64,000 bases of DNA from Bacillota bacterium (GTDB lineage: Bacteria; Bacillota; Sulfobacillia; Sulfobacillales; Sulfobacillaceae). The notes under the pieces were generated by a model. It searched no databases. It was not told the origin of the DNA and saw only the letters and a list, made by a program, of their open reading frames with translations. The DNA is taken from positions 62,001 to 126,000 of the forward strand of contig JAJYHT010000062.1 in the NCBI GenBank assembly GCA_021784595.1, written 5' to 3'. Positions 33,256 to 54,430 of the stretch are shown piece by piece (positions within the stretch are counted from its first letter, which is position 1; each line of letters starts with the position of its first letter). The position numbers and the translations under genes are program-made.

Positions 33256-33759
33256 TCATGACCCGTTTAATCCGCACCCACATACTCCAATCATTGTTCC
33301 GACAAGTGGGGTCCTAAGAGCCAGCCACCGTGTTTTTGTACCAAACACCACCGGCGGAAGCGGGTGCCCATCCACGTGCTGTTGATAGAAAGCTTGCTGG
33401 GCTTGTTGCCGTGCGAGCCTGCGTTCTTGTTCCGCAATGCGGCGGGCATGCCCGGAGTGCGGTCAACCGTTCGCAGGTTTTTCCACGCGTTGCGTCCATA
33501 AAGTCGCCCCGTCTTTCATGGCTTGATGGCGGGCACGAATGAGGTCTTCGGCTTCTGGCACGGCATCCTTGGCGTAGCGCAACGGCAACTCCGTCTCGCT
33601 CGCACAACGACGTTTCAAACCGCCTATGTTTTGTAGTCTTCCCACTAAGCGTTGAAAAGCAACCCGTAGCATGAACCCATATTGGCGCATCAAACGGCGT
33701 ACCACCGTGTCTTGATCGGGCGTGACATCGAGCAAGACACCAAAAATGGTCGTCTTCAT
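33256..33759 (-). pseudogene. tnpB: IS607-type tnpB fragment with in-frame stop
   Basis: Starts at ATG 33759, overlapping the tnpA stop (ATGA). The first 98 codons look like the TnpB N-terminus (FGVLLDVTPDQDTVVRRLM, LPLRYAKDAV). A TGA at 33463-33465 interrupts, yet the same frame continues with ARRIAEQERRLARQQAQQAF and LPPVVFGTKTRW, a typical TnpB stretch. It ends at a stop at 33256-33258 after 168 codons; the RuvC and zinc-ribbon parts are missing. A fragment in another frame (YLENWLAYRKVLFPE, ending 33182) follows. The gene cannot make an active nuclease. Confidence 0.75.
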
Positions 33760-34406
33760 TCGGGGATTCCTTCCTGAGCTAAGGTCGCCATCGCTTGACG
33801 CACGGTCGAACTTATCTTTTCCCCTCCGCGTTTGCCATAAATGCGGGCCGAGAACGACGTGGTAATAGCAATCAAGTCCTCCACGAGTTCCTGCTGATCG
33901 TCTTTCCCCGTGTGCTCCAGGACGACCACACGCACGCCAAAGGCGTGCAGGTACCTTTCCAGATAAGTAAACCCGAAGCGCGCCAAGCGATCCTGGTACT
34001 CCACCGCCACGATGCCCGCTTGGTGTTGCTGAGCAAGATCCAGCAATCGAAGGAGACCCTGCCGTTTTTCATTCAAGCCGCTCGCGACATCGGTAAGCGC
34101 AGCCACCACAGTCCATCGCTGCTCCGCAGCGAATGCCGTTAACCGCCCGAGTTGGCGGTCCAAATTCCCGGCCTCTTGCTGTTTTGTCGTAGCGACGCGG
34201 GCATAGAGGATGCACCGGGTGTCGTGTGCGGGATATTGTTCCGTCTCGTGCATCAAGGCCTTCAAGTCCGCCACCCGATAGCGGCGATGATTCGTCACGG
34301 TGCGCACGGGAATCAAGCGCCCTTCGCGTTCCCACTTCCGTAACCCGTCGATGCTCATTCCCAGCATCTTCGCGGCCTTGCCGATACTTACGAACTGTTC
34401 GTCCAT
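33756..34406 (-). CDS. tnpA: IS607-family serine recombinase TnpA with substituted nucleophile
   Basis: 216 residues: a MerR-like winged helix (SIGKAAKMLGMSIDGLRKWE, 7-26) and a small serine-resolvase catalytic domain (about 65-200) with DRLARFGF and the family ending SFSARIYGKRGGEK. The nucleophile motif, normally YARVS, reads YARVATTKQ: residue 72 is Ala (GCT). Without the serine it should not cleave DNA, although it may still bind its sites. The open frame is otherwise intact. A TGGTACAAT extended -10 precedes it. Confidence 0.85.
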   Translation of the reverse strand: MDEQFVSIGKAAKMLGMSIDGLRKWEREGRLIPVRTVTNHRRYRVADLKALMHETEQYPAHDTRCILYARVATTKQQEAGNLDRQLGRLTAFAAEQRWTVVAALTDVASGLNEKRQGLLRLLDLAQQHQAGIVAVEYQDRLARFGFTYLERYLHAFGVRVVVLEHTGKDDQQELVEDLIAITTSFSARIYGKRGGEKISSTVRQAMATLAQEGIPE

Positions 34407-39532: not shown

Positions 39533-40372
39533 TTAGCCTACCAACGCCCGTTGCGGGAGGTTCTGCGCCGCATTGCGATCGCGGTCATGCCAGACCCCAC
39601 AGTGCGGGCCTTGCCAGACTCGGTCCACCAGGGTTAAGTCTGTCCTGCGGTACGTGCAATGGGGCGTCGAACAATCTTGACTCGTGAAGCGGGGGTCTCT
39701 CAGCACGACACGGCGACCGGCTCTTTCAGCCTTGAACGTCGTGACCTGAACGAGTTGATGCCATCCCGCATCGGCAATGTCCTTCGCTAAATGGTGGTTT
39801 TTCAGGAGCCGTTGAGCAGTCAAGTCTTCAAACGCGATGAGACCATAGCTGTGGACTAAGTGTCGGGCAATCTGATGGGCTGCAACGCGCCGTTGATTCG
39901 CGACCCGTTCCTGGGCTTTCGCGAGACGACGGACGGCTTTTTTGCGCCGCCGACTGCCCTTCTTCTGCCGGGACACGGCGCGCTGCAACCGTTTCAGCTT
40001 GCGCTCAGCTTTGCCCAGCGACTGCGGATGGTCAAAGCGCTCGCCATCCGACGGGTGCTTAATCCCCAGATCGCCGCCCATCATGGCCTCCGACGGCGGT
40101 AGGGATACGATCGCGACTTCGCAAGAAAACACCGCGTAGTCATCCTGCAACACTTGCGAATGGACGGAGTGGATCCCCGGAATCGCCGCTTTCCGTGCAG
40201 GAAAGCGCTTCGCTTGCGCCACATAGGACATGCTTTGGCCGGACTTCTCATAGGCTTCCTTGCGCTCGGCCAATAGCCGATTGTACAACAACCGACAATG
40301 TTCCAGCGTGTTCTCGATCACCTGCTGCTGTGTCTTATTGGGATACAGGCGATATTTGAACGATGGGCGCAT
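39533..40372 (-). pseudogene. tnpB: IS605 tnpB, internally deleted with altered zinc ribbon
   Basis: 279 residues from ATG 40372 (AAAGGAAA upstream), versus about 370-400 for intact relatives. The N-terminus (FKYRLYPNKTQQQVIENTL) joins directly from HSQVLQDD to YAVFSCEV, skipping about 90 residues of the wedge/REC part. RuvC residues remain (D in MGGDLGIKH, E in IAFEDL, D in HDRDRNAA). The zinc ribbon is broken: the first pair reads CSTPHC and the second WQGPHC, losing one Cys. The frame stays open, so a short protein may be made, but RNA-guided cleavage is unlikely. Confidence 0.75.
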
Positions 40373-40374
40373 GG

Positions 40375-40773
40375 TTATTTTCCTTTCTGGCCCTCGATAT
40401 AGCGTTTGACCACATCGAGTGGCACCGCACCCACCGTCGCCACAAAATACGCATTGGTCCACAAAGACGGCAAGCGGCGCTTCAGGATCGGGAATTCCTG
40501 GCGAAGAACATGGGAGGTATAGCCTTTCAACTGCTTGACCACCCGATGAATTCCAAACTGCGGATCGCATTGAATGAGGAGATGGACATGATCCGGCATG
40601 ACTTCCATTTCCAGGATGTCGGTTCGGAGTTCACGGGCTTTGCTGTTCAACAATTCCTTTAGCCGCGCATCGACCCCGTTGACCAGCACCTTCCGGCGAT
40701 ATTTCGGGCAGAACACGACATCGTATTTGCAGTCAAACGTGATATTGTGATGGCTTTCCGTCAGGCGACCCAT
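40375..40773 (-). CDS. tnpA: IS200/IS605 TnpA, Y1 HUH transposase
   Basis: 132 residues, full length. HUH motif in MPDHVHLLIQ, catalytic Tyr in VVKRYIEGQ near the C-terminus, and the N-terminal ITFDCKYDVVFCPKYRRKVL typical of the family. It acts as a dimer on single-stranded ends. Its stop is 2 bp before the tnpB start. An extended -10 (TGGTATAAT) and a GGTGA site precede it. Probably functional. Confidence 0.9.
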   Translation of the reverse strand: MGRLTESHHNITFDCKYDVVFCPKYRRKVLVNGVDARLKELLNSKARELRTDILEMEVMPDHVHLLIQCDPQFGIHRVVKQLKGYTSHVLRQEFPILKRRLPSLWTNAYFVATVGAVPLDVVKRYIEGQKGK

Positions 40774-47296: not shown

Positions 47297-48460
47297 ATGA
47301 AAATTGGCATCGTACGGGAAACTGCCCCAGGCGAACGCCGGGTAGCCCTTGTTCCCGATGGGGTTAATCGTCTCGTTAAAGCGGGGCATGAGGTATATGT
47401 GCAACAACTGGCAGGTCAAGAGGCGGGCATTTCGGACCAGGCTTATGAGGCTCAAGGCGGGCTCATCGTGTCCACCGAGACCGAGATCTTCGCAAAAGCC
47501 GAACTGCTGCTAGCGGTGCGGCCGCTGGATATTCGGGCCCTAAGCGGTATGCGTCCGTATTCGGCGTTAGTTGCCATTCTACAACCGTTAGCAACGAATC
47601 CGAATTTCTTTCAAATGCTGGCCGAGCAACAAATCACGTCATTTAGTTTAGATGCTATGCCACGTATCAGCCGCGCTCAAAACATGGATGTGCTGTCTTC
47701 GATGAGCACAGTGGCCGGATATCGCGCCACTATCGTGGCGTCTGAGTTGCTAGGGCGATTTTTCCCTATGCTGATGACGGCTGCCGGCACTATCACCCCC
47801 GCCAAGGTTTTGGTGCTGGGGGTTGGGGTGGCCGGTCTACAAGCCATTGCAACCGCCCACCGGTTGGGAGCTGTGGTCCAAGCATTTGACACGCGACCTG
47901 TGGTGCGGGACCAGGTGGAGAGCTTAGGCGCAACATTCTTGGCATTGGATTTGTCAGGAGAGCAAACACGCGAAGGATATGCCACGGAGTTGGCCGAAGA
48001 GCAGCACGTTCGCGAGTTGGCTCTTTTAGCCAAGCCAGTCGCCGAGGCGGATGTGATAATCACTACGGCACTGGTGCCCGGTCGCCGAGCGCCCATCTTA
48101 TTGACGCAAGAGATGGTGTCGACCATGAAGCCAGGCGCGGTCATTGTCGATATGGCAGGCGAGGCGGGAGGCAACTGCGAGGTGAGTGTGCCGGGGCAAA
48201 CTATAGTGCATCAAGGCATCACTATTACCGCCCCTTTGGACTTGGCTTCCCAAATGCCATTGAACTCCAGCCAGCTGTATTCCCGCAACATGGTGAATTT
48301 TGTGACCTATTTGCTAGGATTAGGATTCGGTGACGGGGAAGCCTTCAAGTTGGACGATGAGATTATCGCTCGGACGTGTATGACCCACGACGGGAAAATT
48401 GTATCTACTGTTTTACAACAACGTATCGAGTCCGTGACGAACAAAGGGGGCGGAGCTTAG
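47297..48460 (+). CDS. pntAA: Proton-translocating NAD(P) transhydrogenase subunit alpha-1
   Basis: 387 residues: domain I of transhydrogenase, related to alanine dehydrogenase. N-terminal IGIVRETAPGERRVALVPD, RISRAQNMDVLSSMSTVAGY (about 124-143) and the NAD Rossmann motif VLGVGVAGLQAIATA (about 170-184). It binds NAD(H) and passes hydride to the beta subunit. GAGGA precedes ATG 47297. The gene's stop overlaps the next start. The split alpha (AA/AB) arrangement is the usual bacterial three-gene form. Confidence 0.92.
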   Translation: MKIGIVRETAPGERRVALVPDGVNRLVKAGHEVYVQQLAGQEAGISDQAYEAQGGLIVSTETEIFAKAELLLAVRPLDIRALSGMRPYSALVAILQPLATNPNFFQMLAEQQITSFSLDAMPRISRAQNMDVLSSMSTVAGYRATIVASELLGRFFPMLMTAAGTITPAKVLVLGVGVAGLQAIATAHRLGAVVQAFDTRPVVRDQVESLGATFLALDLSGEQTREGYATELAEEQHVRELALLAKPVAEADVIITTALVPGRRAPILLTQEMVSTMKPGAVIVDMAGEAGGNCEVSVPGQTIVHQGITITAPLDLASQMPLNSSQLYSRNMVNFVTYLLGLGFGDGEAFKLDDEIIARTCMTHDGKIVSTVLQQRIESVTNKGGGA

Positions 48461-48756
48461 TGCATTTCAATTGGACCACTGAGTTTTATATTTTTGTGCT
48501 TGCGGTATTTGTAGGGTTTCAGTTGATCTCAAAAGTGCCCTCGGTGCTACACACCCCTCTAATGTCCGCTACGAACGCAATCCACGGGATAATTCTTGTG
48601 GGAGCTTTATCATTGCTGGCGTCAGGGCATACCGAGGCCGACTTTTGGATTGGCCTTCTGGCAGTGTTTTTAGCGACCTTGAATGTGGTTGGAGGATTTG
48701 TCGTAACGGATCGGATTTTAGGCATGTTTCAAAAGAAACCTAGCGGGAAGGAGTGA
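48460..48756 (+). CDS. pntAB: NAD(P) transhydrogenase subunit alpha-2
   Basis: 98 residues with three to four helices and the motif LHTPLMSATNAIHGII typical of the alpha membrane domain. GTG 48460 overlaps the pntAA TAG stop by one base, with GGGGGCGGAG upstream. It forms the proton channel with PntB. Confidence 0.92.
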   Translation: MHFNWTTEFYIFVLAVFVGFQLISKVPSVLHTPLMSATNAIHGIILVGALSLLASGHTEADFWIGLLAVFLATLNVVGGFVVTDRILGMFQKKPSGKE

Positions 48757-48760
48757 GGAT

Positions 48761-50134
48761 GTGCTTGAGTTTGAACAAGCGGGATATTTAGTCACGGCGA
48801 TTTTTTTCATTGCTGGGATGATGCGATTAAAGACCCCAGCTCGTGCCCGGTCGGGAAATTTGTTGTCCGCTGCGGGAATGGCGATTGCTGTGTTAGTGAC
48901 CGTAGTCGCGCATCCTCACTTGCCTTGGCTGGCCACACTGGTTGTTGTGGCAATTGGAGGCGCCGTGGGTTTTTTGGTTGCCAAACGTGTCAAAATGACG
49001 GCCATGCCCCAAATGGTTGCGCTCTTCAACGCTATGGGTGGCGGCGCCGCGAGTCTGGTTTCGTTAGGATCTCTGCTCCATGCCAATGTTACGGTTGTGG
49101 GCCAGTCGGTGGCCGCATTATTTACCATTATTGTGGGCGCGATAAGTTTCTCAGGAAGTTTAATTGCTTTTTTTAAGCTACAGGAATGGCTTAGTGGAAG
49201 ACCCATTACCTATCCTCTGCAAAAGTGGGTTAATGGTGGGGTGCTGGTCATTTTGGCAGCGGTCGTCGTCGGTCTGATGGCTTCACCCCACAATGCTGGT
49301 TTGGCAACTGTTCTTATTCTCTTGGCATTGCTGGAAGGCATTATGGTGGTCTTGCCAATAGGCGGCGCGGATATGCCGGTAGTCATTTCTCTACTTAACG
49401 CATTTACAGGACTGGCTGCAGCCGCCACCGGATTTTTATTGGACAATAACGTTCTTATCATTGCGGGTGCCTTAGTCGGCGCGTCCGGGACCATCTTGAC
49501 TCAATTGATGAGCCGCGCCATGAACCGATCGATTACCAACATCTTGTTTGGTGCGTTCGGCAAAACGGTCCATAGTGGCGTCGTGGGCACGGTTGATGAT
49601 GGGGTGGTAACCCATGCGACCGTCGAAGATGTCGCCATGTTGTTAGCCTATTCGCGAAAAGTGATCGTGGTCCCGGGTTATGGTTTGGCCGTCGCCCGAG
49701 CGCAGCAGGAAGTGCGCCAATTGCTTGAAAAACTATCGCAACGCAATGTCGATGTGCGGTTCGCCATTCACCCTGTAGCTGGCCGCATGCCGGGTCACAT
49801 GAACGTGTTGCTGGCAGAGGCGAATGTGCCCTACGATAAACTCTTTGAAATGGACAGCATTAATCCTGAATTCAAAGACACCGACGTTACCCTAGTTATT
49901 GGGGCCAATGATGTCACCAATCCGGCGGCAAAGAACCAACCCAACAGTCCCTTGTATGGAATGCCTGTGCTCAACGTCGATCAGAGCCGGAAGATCATTG
50001 TTCTTAAAAGGGGAATGAGTCCGGGGTTTGCCGGGATTGACAATCCTTTGTATACCAATTCCAAGACCAGCATGTTGTTCGGTGATGCTCGCGACTCCTT
50101 GAACGAATTGGTGCGTGCTGTCGAAGAAATGTGA
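48761..50134 (+). CDS. pntB: NAD(P) transhydrogenase subunit beta
   Basis: 457 residues: about 8-9 N-terminal helices, then the NADP-binding domain III from about residue 285 with VIVVPGYGLAVARAQ, FAIHPVAGRMPGHMNVLLAEA, GANDVTNPAA and MPVLNVDQSR. GTG 48761 follows AAGGAGTGAGG, 4 bp after pntAB. The complex uses proton motive force to make NADPH from NADH, which could supply the downstream P450 and other reductive steps. A terminator-like hairpin follows. Confidence 0.93.
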   Translation: MLEFEQAGYLVTAIFFIAGMMRLKTPARARSGNLLSAAGMAIAVLVTVVAHPHLPWLATLVVVAIGGAVGFLVAKRVKMTAMPQMVALFNAMGGGAASLVSLGSLLHANVTVVGQSVAALFTIIVGAISFSGSLIAFFKLQEWLSGRPITYPLQKWVNGGVLVILAAVVVGLMASPHNAGLATVLILLALLEGIMVVLPIGGADMPVVISLLNAFTGLAAAATGFLLDNNVLIIAGALVGASGTILTQLMSRAMNRSITNILFGAFGKTVHSGVVGTVDDGVVTHATVEDVAMLLAYSRKVIVVPGYGLAVARAQQEVRQLLEKLSQRNVDVRFAIHPVAGRMPGHMNVLLAEANVPYDKLFEMDSINPEFKDTDVTLVIGANDVTNPAAKNQPNSPLYGMPVLNVDQSRKIIVLKRGMSPGFAGIDNPLYTNSKTSMLFGDARDSLNELVRAVEEM

Positions 50135-50172
50135 CGAGACCGCCGCCTCACACGCTCGATATGACCCAGTGT

Positions 50173-50213
50173 GGGATCCGCCGCCGTATTGTGAGGATAG
50201 GGCGGCGGGATCC
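50173..50213 (+). terminator. Hairpin after pntB
   Basis: GGATCCGCCGCC and GGCGGCGGGATCC pair over 12 bp with one bulged base and a 15-nt loop, followed by a short GTTTG. It separates the pnt operon from the next genes, probably incompletely. Confidence 0.55.
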
Positions 50214-50328
50214 GTTTGCGTTATCTAATCTAAATAGCTTGGCTGGGCTGGAGGGATGAATGCAGGTCATATCTTTGACGGTGGACGCGAGATAGATATC
50301 TGCCATAATAGATTTGGGAGGGATTTTG

Positions 50329-50583
50329 GTGGACACTGATTCAAATAACGGGGATCAGGTGACTCTTGAAGTAGATGCTACCGGGAAACCGCGACCAATG
50401 CCTACCATGGGAGCGGTAAAGGGTATGGACTATATTGAGATAGGCGAAATCATGGAGATTATATTTGACGATCCATTGTGCGTACAAGATTTGAAAAATT
50501 GGGCGAGTTTAAAAAAACAGGAGTTTTTAGGGTCGCAGCAAAGCGGCACGACCTACAGTGTACGGATTCGACGCCTGTCGTAG
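50329..50583 (+). CDS. TusA-like protein lacking the catalytic cysteine (second copy)
   Basis: 84 residues. LEVDATGKPRPMPTMGAV aligns with the TusA N-terminus (DxxGLxCPxP): Arg22 stands where the catalytic Cys belongs. The rest (IGEIMEIIFDDPLCVQDLKNWASLKKQ, in parts) is the usual strand-helix-strand. The only Cys is at about residue 51 in DPLCVQD. GTG 50329 follows GGGAGGG at 6 nt. Sulfur transfer by the known mechanism is not possible; a regulatory or binding role is inferred. It heads a short gene series with two unknown proteins and a P450. Confidence 0.7.
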   Translation: MDTDSNNGDQVTLEVDATGKPRPMPTMGAVKGMDYIEIGEIMEIIFDDPLCVQDLKNWASLKKQEFLGSQQSGTTYSVRIRRLS

Positions 50584-50615
50584 CCGATCAGGGTTTGGAT
50601 GGGGAGGGCTGATAG

Positions 50616-50822
50616 ATGGCATTATATGCTTGCGGCTATGTCTTGCACTTTGATGACGGAGGGCAAACCGAGCAGGAAATTTTATTTGTAGGGGAGCTGG
50701 CCCAGTGTGAAATTCTGGAAGGGCAGTCGCCCGAACCCCGGTATCGTGGTCCACGCGTCATGACCATGGCCCGTTTTGTTATCCGGCCGGTCAGCGATCC
50801 CAACAATATTGCGTTAATATAA
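50616..50822 (+). CDS. Hypothetical protein, 68 residues
   Basis: Unrecognised. It starts ALYACGYVLHFDDGG, has two cysteines (C6 and C31) and is predicted to be beta-rich. ATG 50616 follows GGGAGGG at a good distance, so it is likely translated. It lies 32 bp after the TusA-like gene and 17 bp before the next, in an apparent operon. Confidence 0.65.
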   Translation: MALYACGYVLHFDDGGQTEQEILFVGELAQCEILEGQSPEPRYRGPRVMTMARFVIRPVSDPNNIALI

Positions 50823-50839
50823 GCGAAAGAGGACTCCAC

Positions 50840-51196
50840 ATGGACGAAAATGATGTGCGTACGGATTATTGGATTGATAATCGAAGCAATAGGGCATTCC
50901 CTTTATGGCTGATTTTCAAGCAAGTAGGCCACGAAATGGGTGTTATGGATAACCTTCCCTACCTTCGTCAGTCACGACGAGGAGTTTCTGACGTTCTTAA
51001 AACATTAGAGCAAAGACCTGAGTTTATCCGATTGGCGACTGTGTTGGGAATTGGTGAGGATGAGCTGCGCGCCTTGATCTGGTATGTATCGTGGTTAGTA
51101 GAGAATCAGCAGATGCCTGATGAATGGGCCCAATGGAATCGCAGGGTGGACTCGGCATGGGCCTCAGGCGTGCTAAAACCGACCACAACCTTATGA
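50840..51196 (+). CDS. Hypothetical helical protein, 118 residues
   Basis: Unrecognised, mostly helical and soluble, with Trp-rich stretches (DELRALIWYVSWLVENQQ, WAQWNRRVDSAW). AAAGAGGA precedes ATG 50840. Its stop overlaps the P450 start (ATGA), so the two are translationally coupled; it may be an accessory protein for the P450. Confidence 0.65.
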   Translation: MDENDVRTDYWIDNRSNRAFPLWLIFKQVGHEMGVMDNLPYLRQSRRGVSDVLKTLEQRPEFIRLATVLGIGEDELRALIWYVSWLVENQQMPDEWAQWNRRVDSAWASGVLKPTTTL

Positions 51197-52440
51197 CCTC
51201 GCACGTAGGTCGGGGAAATCCATGGATGACATTGCTTGAGTTTCACCGCGATCCTCTTTCTATGCTATTGCAATATGGCGATCTCGACCAGCCGGTTACC
51301 CCCATTCGGCTCGGCCGCTGGACTCTTTATTTGGTTACTGGCGAACAGGAAACGTCGTATGTGCTAAGCCATCATGTCCGTCATTTTAAGAAGGGACCAG
51401 GTATGGATCAACGCAATCCGTTGATTGGGAACGGATTGCTCTTAAGTGAAACACCACGATGGGAAGTTGCCCGACGTCTTGTCAAAGACGAATTCGTGCC
51501 CAGCACGGTGCAAACCAAAGCCCCCCTAATGAGATCAGCTATTTCACAGCAATTGGATACCTGGCCAGCGGGCATATGCAACGTCGCCGAAAGGTTGGTA
51601 GACCTGACTGCTGCGGTTGTCATGACGTCTTTATTTGAAGTACAACCAGACCCCGTGGAACTGCGCCAAATTATCATTAATTCGCAGCAACTTATGCTAT
51701 ATTTTTACCGCCGTAGCAGAAGCTTTTTTAGACCGCCTTATCATATGCCATGGCCGGCTAATCGTACATATTGGAAGGCCGCAGTTCCTTTAGGACAAAT
51801 GGCTGACAAGCTATATTCTCTGCGGTCAGGAGGACGTTCCGAGTTTTTAAATCGGTTGGAACAACTCCCTTCTGATGAACGGCGGGCTCAAATCGTGACT
51901 TTCCTTATTGCGGGCCATGAAACCACGGCCAATGCACTAAGCTGGACGCTAGGACTGTTGGCTCACCATCCTGTAGTGCAGCATAAGGCCCGATCAAATG
52001 CGCTATGGAGGGAAGCCGCGATCAAAGAATCGCTTCGGCTTTATCCACCGGTTTGGTTGCTGAGTCGTTCGACCGTGGCCTCCATCCAGCTCGGTGATTA
52101 TCTATTGCCCCCCGGAACCTCCATATTGGTCAGTCCCTGGGTGAGTCATCGGTTAACACGCAACTTTCAGCGCGCAAATGAATTCTTGCCTGAGCGATGG
52201 TTCACTGACGAAAAAGTATCACCTTCTGTATACTTTCCGTTTGGGGGTGGACAACGCAGTTGCATCGGAGAATCCTTCGCAATGCAAGAGATATTACTGG
52301 CGATTGAACAGATTTTGTTCCGGTTTGAGCTGGCGCCAGCGACGGATTTGATGGCACAGCCACTGCCTTTATTGAGTTTGAGGCCGATGAATGGAATGTG
52401 GATTGCCGTGGCGCCTAACGTGTCTGGCGATTTCCATTGA
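51193..52440 (+). CDS. Cytochrome P450
   Basis: 415 residues. Haem ligand C357 in FPFGGGQRSCIGESFA, the I-helix AGHETT (A240-T245), and ExxR at E279/R282 in KESLRLYPP. It resembles class I bacterial P450s of the fatty acid/terpenoid group (CYP102-like heme core without reductase). ATG 51193 overlaps the preceding stop and has no own ribosome site, so it depends on coupling. No ferredoxin is adjacent; the FAD reductase at 41.7 kb could be a distant partner. Substrate unknown. Confidence 0.9.
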   Translation: MTSHVGRGNPWMTLLEFHRDPLSMLLQYGDLDQPVTPIRLGRWTLYLVTGEQETSYVLSHHVRHFKKGPGMDQRNPLIGNGLLLSETPRWEVARRLVKDEFVPSTVQTKAPLMRSAISQQLDTWPAGICNVAERLVDLTAAVVMTSLFEVQPDPVELRQIIINSQQLMLYFYRRSRSFFRPPYHMPWPANRTYWKAAVPLGQMADKLYSLRSGGRSEFLNRLEQLPSDERRAQIVTFLIAGHETTANALSWTLGLLAHHPVVQHKARSNALWREAAIKESLRLYPPVWLLSRSTVASIQLGDYLLPPGTSILVSPWVSHRLTRNFQRANEFLPERWFTDEKVSPSVYFPFGGGQRSCIGESFAMQEILLAIEQILFRFELAPATDLMAQPLPLLSLRPMNGMWIAVAPNVSGDFH

Positions 52441-52462
52441 CCTTGACGAAAGGACGAATATA

Positions 52463-54430
52463 GTGTTCGAATTACGAGATGTAAGCCGCGCCTACAAATT
52501 GGGAGGTCAGGAAATAACCGCGTTATCACACGTGAGTCTGAAGTTTCCCGATCACAGCTTTACTATTGTACTAGGGCCCTCGGGCAGTGGAAAAAGTACA
52601 TTGTTGAATCTCTTGGGTGGCCTAGATCGACCAACATCGGGAGAGGTGCGTTTTAACGGGTTAAACGTGGCTCAGTTCAACAATGACCAATTAGCGTCCT
52701 TTAGGCGCCATCATGTGGGGACAGTGTTTCAATCTTACCATCTGCTGCCGCACTTGACGGCACTGGAAAATGTCGAGTTGGCCTTGTCTATGGATTCGGG
52801 ATCGGAGAGGCATCATCGCGCTCAGCAACTTTTGGAAGAGGTGGGGTTAGCCGATCGATTGCATAATCGACCAGCTGAACTGTCAGGCGGAGAGCAGCAG
52901 CGGGTGGCGGTGGCTAGAGCTTTAGCGCATAACCCGAGTATTTTACTGGCCGATGAACCCACAGGAAACTTGGATTCCGTTGCCCGCCGGGAGATCATGG
53001 GATTGCTTCATAAACTGCATGATGAGGGATATACCGTTATTATCATAACCCATAACGAAGAGTTGGTTACAGAACATGATCGTATCGTGCGCTTGCATGA
53101 TGGTGAGGTTGTAAAAGATTCTGCTCCTCCGCTTGCAAGGGACGCAGTAGTCGAGGAAAATTCACCAATCGTTACCGTGAAAACGCGACTAGGTTGGAGT
53201 TGGTGGATGGCACTGCGCAATATGGTAAGGTCTAAGCCCAGAACCCTATTAACGGCAGTCGGAACCGCCATCGGGATCGGGTCGATAGTCCTTACGGTCG
53301 CATTTGGCACCGGACTCAGGCACAATGCCAATCAGAGTCTGGCACAAAACGGAGGGCTCAATACGGTTGAAGTGTTAGGACGCATCCCTTCGGGCGCGAC
53401 GTCTTCAACTGTGAATGAACCCAACCCGTTGACTTCAAGTGACATTGCGCACTTTCAGAAATTGAGCGGAGTAGCCAGCGCGTATGCCGTGGTCTCGGTT
53501 CCAGTCATGATTCACGGGAAATCCATTGTCGCGGCCATGCTCACCAGTCTGCCCCTAGCAGGACTCCCCAACGGACAAAAACTCATTGCAGGACATCGGC
53601 CAACCTCAGGAAATTCCGTGCTCTTAGTGCAGTCGGGAATAAAAAGCTTGTTTGGCAACACAACGCCCGCGCGAGCCATAGGGAAAAGCTTTGTGGTGGA
53701 AAATACGACAGTCTTGCACCCGTTGGCTGTCACCATGACTGTGGCCGGGATTTTGAGTCCTGTGGAGCCGACCAATCAAAGCAGCGCGCCAGCGGGGTCC
53801 GTGGCTAAGTCCTCGGTGGCTCTGTACTTGCCGTATGCCGTAGCTGTCCACAGTTGGGCCGGTCACCCGCCGAAGTTTTCCCAGGCGATAATTAATGGAA
53901 AAAATGCAGCGGCCACCGTCAGTATTACCAAGACCCTTTCACAACAAGGATTCGTCGTGTTTTCGCTACGTCAAATCGCAAAGGGGATTGATACTTTTGT
54001 GATTATTATTCAAACGGTGCTGGGCGCATTTGGCGGCATTGCGTTGGTAGTGGCTGGAATTATGATTGCCTTGGTGATGATGTGGGCAGTACTGGAACGC
54101 ACTCGGGAAATTGGCATACTAAAGGCACTAGGGGCGCGTGCTAAAGATATTAGACGCATTTTCATTGATGAGGCAGCGTTGATTGGGTTATTGGCCGGGG
54201 TGATTGGGCTCGCTGGCGCTTATGGAGTCGCTGTGGTGCTTCAAGCAGTATTGAAGACGTTAATCGCCAAAGCCGGGGGAACGGCTCCGGCTGTGCTGTT
54301 TGTTATTCCTTGGTGGCTCATCGTAGCGGCGCTGGGCTTTGGCATGGTGGTAGGCATCGTAGGTTCTTGGATTCCAGCTTTTCGGGCTTCCCGCCTTAGC
54401 GTGGTTGAGGCGCTGCGTCACAATGGCTAA
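52463..54430 (+). CDS. MacB-type ABC transporter, ATPase fused to permease
   Basis: 655 residues. N-terminal ATPase (about 1-225): Walker A LGPSGSGKSTLLNLLGG, signature LSGGEQQRVAVARAL, Walker B LLADEPTGNLDS. C-terminal part: a helix at about 255, an extracytoplasmic MacB_PCD domain (285-510) and three FtsX helices (from about 520). MacB-like proteins drive mechanotransmission for export of peptides or lipids, usually with a MacA adaptor; none is seen here. GTG 52463 follows AAAGGAC, 22 bp after the P450. Confidence 0.88.
   Translation: MFELRDVSRAYKLGGQEITALSHVSLKFPDHSFTIVLGPSGSGKSTLLNLLGGLDRPTSGEVRFNGLNVAQFNNDQLASFRRHHVGTVFQSYHLLPHLTALENVELALSMDSGSERHHRAQQLLEEVGLADRLHNRPAELSGGEQQRVAVARALAHNPSILLADEPTGNLDSVARREIMGLLHKLHDEGYTVIIITHNEELVTEHDRIVRLHDGEVVKDSAPPLARDAVVEENSPIVTVKTRLGWSWWMALRNMVRSKPRTLLTAVGTAIGIGSIVLTVAFGTGLRHNANQSLAQNGGLNTVEVLGRIPSGATSSTVNEPNPLTSSDIAHFQKLSGVASAYAVVSVPVMIHGKSIVAAMLTSLPLAGLPNGQKLIAGHRPTSGNSVLLVQSGIKSLFGNTTPARAIGKSFVVENTTVLHPLAVTMTVAGILSPVEPTNQSSAPAGSVAKSSVALYLPYAVAVHSWAGHPPKFSQAIINGKNAAATVSITKTLSQQGFVVFSLRQIAKGIDTFVIIIQTVLGAFGGIALVVAGIMIALVMMWAVLERTREIGILKALGARAKDIRRIFIDEAALIGLLAGVIGLAGAYGVAVVLQAVLKTLIAKAGGTAPAVLFVIPWWLIVAALGFGMVVGIVGSWIPAFRASRLSVVEALRHNG

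Follow-up and report, generated by a model that had tools for sequence, protein, structure and literature searches.

The EtfBA-containing arrangement of sHdr genes for sulfur oxidation is classified as Group III and assigned to Actinobacteria and Firmicutes in the available part of one report (PMC6067878), and extracts of another describe repressors of the CstR/YrkD type, which sense sulfane sulfur and sit together with dsrE and tusA homologs (PMC9918477). In Metallosphaera, a TusA mutant in the motif cysteine (C18S) neither reacted with tetrathionate nor was loaded with thiosulfate, as stated in an excerpt of PMC4175335, and DUF433 proteins appear in a listing within PMC4963859 as antitoxins of PIN toxins in Synechocystis. 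Here we describe a gene cluster in which relatives of such proteins are joined to a cytochrome P450 and a MacB-type ABC protein; the kinds of component are already known, and their combination is unusual. The cluster lies in a stretch of 64,000 nucleotides from an acid-loving, Sulfobacillus-type Bacillota bacterium of the Sulfobacillaceae (hereafter the window), which belongs to contig C44 in a source genome (G000) of 3.79 Mb and 97.5% completeness. Its two conserved small proteins, one TusA-like and the other a divergent DUF433 protein of 118 amino acids (aa), both appear to point to sulfur trafficking. The reading that we tentatively favor, at somewhat less than an even chance, is that a TusA pseudo-carrier and a DUF433-like adaptor, both derived from sulfur oxidation, regulate or dock the P450 and the pump in a lineage-specific operon.

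Five adjacent open reading frames (ORFs), all on the plus strand, occupy positions 50329-54430, and our reading of the ORFs confirmed each of them where the earlier, sequence-only reading of this DNA had placed it. For distribution counts, G000 was set beside 100 relatives (101 genomes). The genus of the window, g1, has just three members that are at least 90% complete (G000, G003 and G004), and the order TusA-like, 118-aa, P450, MacB is kept in all three; two other members (71% and 63% complete) yielded matches neither to the small proteins nor to the P450. A 68-aa gene is the sole member of the cluster without a counterpart in G003 and G004, and the conserved unit at the genus level is four genes, to which one species-specific gene is added in the window. 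Between G003 and G004, dN/dS amounts to 0.063 for the TusA-like gene, 0.107 for the 118-aa gene, 0.118 for the P450 and 0.095 for MacB; a range of 0.05-0.087 was also obtained for the TusA-like gene, with synonymous sites near saturation for most genes in comparisons against G000. All four genes are under purifying selection. The stop codon of the 118-aa gene runs into the start codon of the P450, sharing 4 nt (ATGA) in G000 and 1 nt (TGATG) in G003 and G004, and no ribosome site is evident ahead of the P450 in the window, both of which the earlier reading had already seen for the window. The cluster genes may form one transcript.

It is conceivable that unrelated genes merely came together in this lineage, with no functional tie between them. 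The absence of the two small genes and MacB from the same place in the sister genus g3 would suit this explanation, as would the restriction of the 68-aa gene to G000. However, order, overlap and purifying selection have been kept across three species, and two sulfur-linked proteins are unlikely to have met by accident in a 3.8 Mb genome with 4 TusA matches; we therefore regard a chance assembly as quite improbable.

The first gene (50329..50583, plus strand, GTG start) encodes an 84-aa protein with a full-length match to the Pfam TusA domain (PF01206; 2.7e-13, 50 bits against a cut-off of 28.6), although it stays below the NCBIfam TusA cut-off (25.5 vs 78 bits). The statement that this gene matches nothing known must accordingly be dropped. 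In an alignment of 30 rows, the catalytic CPxP motif is replaced by RPMP in all three cluster copies, whereas CP is present in the 27 other TusA rows. Nor is the protein cysteine-less, as had been claimed: only the catalytic cysteine is missing, and a single cysteine, the same in all three copies, lies in a DDPLC motif at a place where most canonical rows read DPGS or DPGA. Compared to TusA carriers, the protein thus has the same domain, but an arginine in place of the catalytic cysteine and a conserved cysteine in DDPLC instead. G000, G003 and G004 each have, at another place in the genome, an sHdr cluster that retains a TusA with intact CPMP; among the 101 genomes, TusA-like matches occur in 58, and these are mostly distant, ordinary TusA proteins. 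From these motifs we infer that the cluster protein cannot be a conventional sulfur carrier and acts as a binding or sensing partner. It could alternatively be a carrier that uses its DDPLC cysteine, in which case the cluster would deliver sulfur or remove reactive sulfur species, and the P450 would either act as an S-oxygenase or itself be the target of sulfur stress. The conservation of this cysteine in 3/3 cluster copies, against DPGS or DPGA in most canonical proteins, speaks for such a role, but in the one TusA for which an excerpt reports a mutant, the motif cysteine is the essential one (PMC4175335), and TusA with P450, sulfur and Hdr-like proteins were not found together in a limited literature collection. 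We consider a DDPLC carrier improbable.

The 118-aa protein (50840..51196, plus strand) belongs to a family with members in 26 of the 101 genomes, the relatives' genomes being Sulfobacillus and Bacillota. Pfam assigned no family to the window protein alone. An alignment of 25 family members has 19 invariant columns, none of them a cysteine; it leaves out the copy of G008, a genome in 2 contigs; this copy (L048:1498-1845) has a TAG within its reading frame and is either a pseudogene or affected by a sequencing error. Five of the 25 members gave a sub-threshold DUF433 match, the best (8.5e-4) covering positions 3-53 of 56. When the family profile was compared with one of DUF433 proteins from the same class, the two matched with a probability of 95.8 over residues 26-83 (58 columns), while 40 column shuffles reached at most 2.9 and the reversed profile 0.6; the DUF433 profile was built from the 24 of 30 loci that gave a piece, including one (L175) in the wrong frame. 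In the AF2 model of the protein (pLDDT 91.9, pTM 0.79), this region consists of a short hairpin followed or joined by three helices, an HTH-like core, with extra helices at both ends. A structure search with this model returned no match with E below 0.001, and the VIA structure matches (Z up to 5.9) were short or loose helical ones, with the DUF433 entry not among the matches listed, an absence that does not count against a DUF433 fold. The hairpin and three-helix core appears to be common to this protein and to DUF433/COG2442, the family of the Synechocystis antitoxins listed in the accessible part of PMC4963859, but the 118-aa protein differs by its additional N- and C-terminal helices, by its sHdr or P450 neighbors and by the lack of a toxin partner. 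No paper pairing DUF433 with TusA, or with heterodisulfide, was found in the limited literature collection.

The genomic neighborhood of the family is that of sulfur oxidation. The 118-aa gene shares a stretch of at most 20 kb with sHdr genes in 22 of the 26 genomes, in 21 of these 22 within 3 kb, and this linkage spans two families of genomes. On representatives, the neighbors comprise HdrC-, HdrB- and HdrA-like proteins, EtfB, EtfA, lipoate-binding proteins, a lipoate ligase and DsrE, with TusA adjoining. This corresponds to the Group III arrangement, as far as the available part of PMC6067878 describes it, and is in line with what an extract of PMC4378227 gives as Hdr cluster II of Sulfobacillus. 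The sequence-only reading had assigned the small proteins to the P450 and had proposed beforehand to ask whether the 118-aa gene always flanks it. It precedes the P450 in only 3/26 genomes, all of this genus, and is not beside it in the other 23, of which 22 show the sHdr linkage; by the criterion set in that reading, this refutes the assignment for the 118-aa protein. The copy of the window genus, in turn, lies outside the sHdr cluster that its family adjoins in most genomes; in G000, this cluster is located on contig C18 and is devoid of a 118-aa gene.

Immediately after the 118-aa gene and in its orientation, 11 of the 25 relatives' loci have a CsoR-like gene (PF02583 on a representative). 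The CsoR-like protein has two conserved cysteines and, for this reason, may be CstR-like in function. With the CstR/YrkD sulfur operons of Firmicutes, as excerpted from PMC9918477, these loci have in common the association of a CsoR-like repressor gene with TusA and DsrE genes, but genomes of the Sulfobacillus type pair the CsoR-like gene with a DUF433-like one, and the window cluster has no CsoR-like gene. The three P450-linked 118-aa copies group in a single supported clade. Its sister, the copy of G005, has an adjacent CsoR-like gene and no adjacent sHdr gene; this pattern fits a single relocation.

A further TusA-like family that lacks the motif cysteine, cl27, is found next to the CsoR-like/118-aa pair in 7/25 loci (L091:3436-3843, L092:4245-5192, L093:14714-15088, L096:13734-14102, L099:13941-14282, L102:1053-1415 and L104:6513-6833), four of the seven having served as profile seeds; L105 is an eighth, weak match. 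It matches canonical TusA with a profile probability of 87.6 (best of 40 shuffles, 8.1). A direct relationship of cl27 to the cluster's TusA-like protein found no support (probability 2.5), both matching canonical TusA. A more far-reaching and rather unlikely proposal is that a dead TusA and its DUF433-like partner constitute a sensor or dock for the sulfur state, which ordinarily serves sHdr together with the CsoR/CstR-like repressor and has been re-wired here to control or feed the P450 and the pump. If this were true, cl27, placed as it is next to that DUF433-like gene in further genera, would turn 'dead TusA plus DUF433' into a module of general occurrence. As a separate observation, a GAF-like protein (sub-threshold) recurs after tusA-dsrE in the sHdr region (L097:8594-9046, L128:10064-10540).

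One might also suspect that the 118-aa protein is a DUF433 of the antitoxin type and that its linkage reflects the remnant of a toxin-antitoxin system; ORFs that we take, from their motif, to be PIN-like precede related P450s in G014, G016 and G018. The listing of DUF433 as a PIN antitoxin in Synechocystis, which we know from a part of PMC4963859, would agree with this. Yet Pfam revealed no toxin domain in the five cluster proteins or among the scanned neighbors of the 118-aa gene, which is linked to sHdr genes across two families of genomes, making this origin very improbable.

We favor a regulatory or docking role because the TusA-like protein is without the carrier cysteine and because the 118-aa family resides beside sulfur-oxidation genes and a repressor that possibly senses sulfane sulfur. 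The two proteins would pair up as a regulator or adaptor, recruited from sulfur oxidation, that ties the expression or activity of the P450 and the pump to the reduced-sulfur state of the cell. Several observations weigh against this proposal. DUF433 remains below the Pfam cut-off in every member scanned (best 19.5 vs 23.6 bits), and Foldseek ranks the DUF433 entry 2ga1 first for the 118-aa model with a weak match (E 0.71, TM 0.3). The family is acidic, with a pI of 4.7-5.7 in 26/26 copies, which renders direct DNA binding doubtful and an adaptor more likely than a repressor. Furthermore, the cluster of genus g1 has no CsoR-like gene beside it, the P450 occurs in other genera without these partners beside it, and the DDPLC cysteine of the TusA-like protein could still carry sulfur.

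The P450 (415 aa; 51193..52440, plus strand; Pfam p450, 4e-48) has a complete set of motifs by sequence reading, with the heme motif FGGGQRSCIG, AGHETT in the I-helix and ExxR; P450 matches are found in 38/101 genomes. Its best relative in the PDB is CYP175A1 of Thermus (1.3e-38), a carotene hydroxylase. Despite this being the closest solved relative, G000 has no squalene/phytoene synthase (SQS_PSY), and neither have G003, G004, G005, G006 and G015, in a search whose control matched 7 of 14 known genomes. A function as carotenoid or hopanoid hydroxylase was rejected on these grounds, and carotenoids and hopanoids are unlikely substrates, given the missing synthase in G000. The enzyme would rather oxidize a lipophilic molecule that is neither a carotenoid nor a hopanoid, with NADPH supplying it via a ferredoxin system whose genes lie elsewhere. 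Among the literature matches listed for Sulfobacillus with cytochrome P450 or carotenoid, nothing was pertinent.

Related P450s in other genera have neighbors of a different kind. In G016, genes for a squalene/phytoene synthase and a squalene-hopene cyclase (L115:1252-4170) are located some 5-8 kb away from a P450 with 44% identity, hinting that this paralog may have a triterpenoid role and that paralogs may differ. The presumed PIN-like ORFs mentioned above, which have no Pfam match, lie directly before or overlap P450s of 36-44% identity in three other genera (L116:4251-5011, L117:8289-9019 and L115:9319-9774); in L116, the protein encoded ahead of the ORF matches the PhdYefM antitoxin below threshold, and such ORFs are possibly part of a toxin-antitoxin pair coupled to the P450. 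Other small P450 neighbors (cl54, cl59) were tried as homologs of the 118-aa protein and found no support (hhalign probabilities <1).

The last gene (52463..54430, plus strand, GTG start) encodes a MacB-type ABC protein with ATPase, extracytoplasmic core and FtsX permease in one chain (Pfam ABC_tran 1e-34, MacB_PCD 1.3e-12, FtsX 3.2e-19), as had been predicted. While these three domains are those of other MacB-type ABC proteins, its score lies below the NCBIfam cut-off for the macrolide-exporter equivalog (330 vs 966 bits). The G003 and G004 proteins are both 73% identical to it; the start is not conserved everywhere, G004 having GTA at that place. In the adaptor reading, this protein would move the oxidized product of the P450 out of the membrane.

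Just upstream of the cluster are pntAA-pntAB-pntB (47297..50134, plus strand), the genes of an NAD(P) transhydrogenase (NCBIfam PRK09424, 7.1e-119 and 4.9e-27; PRK09444, 3.5e-133), which are probably transcribed separately from it. The same three genes are followed directly by the P450 in both g3 genomes (G015 and G006; loci L113 and L114), with neither small gene nor MacB beside it. Their adjacency to the P450 probably predates the arrival of the other cluster genes, or these genes were lost in g3. G003 (locus L088) has the cluster without a pnt gene upstream, indicating that the cluster is independent of pnt read-through; in G004, the upstream side ends at a contig edge. The suggested link to pnt consequently survives as a historical adjacency and is not needed for the cluster.

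These data bear on the module for oxidation and export that the sequence-only reading had proposed, in which the P450 uses NADPH made by Pnt, MacB exports the product and the small proteins serve the P450 as dedicated helpers. The compact association of P450 and MacB, adjoining in 3/3 near-complete genus members, stands and is plausible as a pairing of oxidation with export, and the module could further draw on pnt preceding the P450 directly in 2/2 g3 genomes and on the 118-aa gene overlapping the P450 gene in all three cluster genomes. Against it, the 118-aa gene is beside a P450 in so few genomes, the g3 P450 has none of the presumed partners but pnt at its side and G003 lacks pnt upstream; the tie of the small proteins to the P450 is the part that did not hold. 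Taken as a whole, we judge this module unlikely.

Between the TusA-like and 118-aa genes lies the species-specific 68-aa ORF (50616..50822, plus strand). Its codon use is coding-like, with 0.2% of 540 off-frame pieces scoring higher and 31% of 108 true pieces lower. Pfam gave no family for it, only its own copy was found among the 101 genomes (1/101), and plasmids and PHROGs contained no relative. Among 154 genomes of the class there was no convincing relative either, 16 other matches (E 0.007-0.1) being at chance level. A single-sequence AF2 model (pLDDT 77) predicts a beta-beta-alpha-beta order, and a fold search with it yielded no significant match (best E 0.19). The earlier notion that these small proteins match nothing known therefore holds for the 68-aa protein and fails for the 118-aa protein.

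The GC-rich hairpin reported between pntB and the cluster is present (50174..50213, plus strand) and is a possible terminator with no clear T-run. Folding of the stretch 50135-50260 as a whole is only marginally more favorable than that of shuffles (z -1.26), and a terminator scan found nothing on the plus strand at the hairpin. Upstream of the TusA-like gene there is a promoter-like site (50282..50309, plus strand; TGGACG-16-CATAAT, with TG before the -10 element and 9/12 matches), which is weak, as the region contained 9 such sites where shuffles gave 5.3 +/- 1.9; the G003 copy has a comparable TG-n-ACAAT-AGAT stretch ahead of it. Farther away, the window contains an ORF at 33756-34406 that we take from its translation to be resolvase-like with an HTH start (IS607-like), and, at 39533-40773, presumably an IS200-type transposase with a TnpB-like ORF, likewise named from the translation.

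To our knowledge, little is known of how Firmicutes sulfur oxidizers of acid mines and bioleaching sense reduced sulfur and control sHdr. The nameless, conserved DUF433-like protein, which in many genera is encoded beside sHdr genes and a CsoR-like repressor gene, is a concrete candidate for a part in such sensing or control. If a TusA without its catalytic cysteine indeed acts as a signaling partner, this would add a pseudo-carrier role to the much-studied sulfur-relay family and would link the sulfur status of the cell to P450 chemistry.

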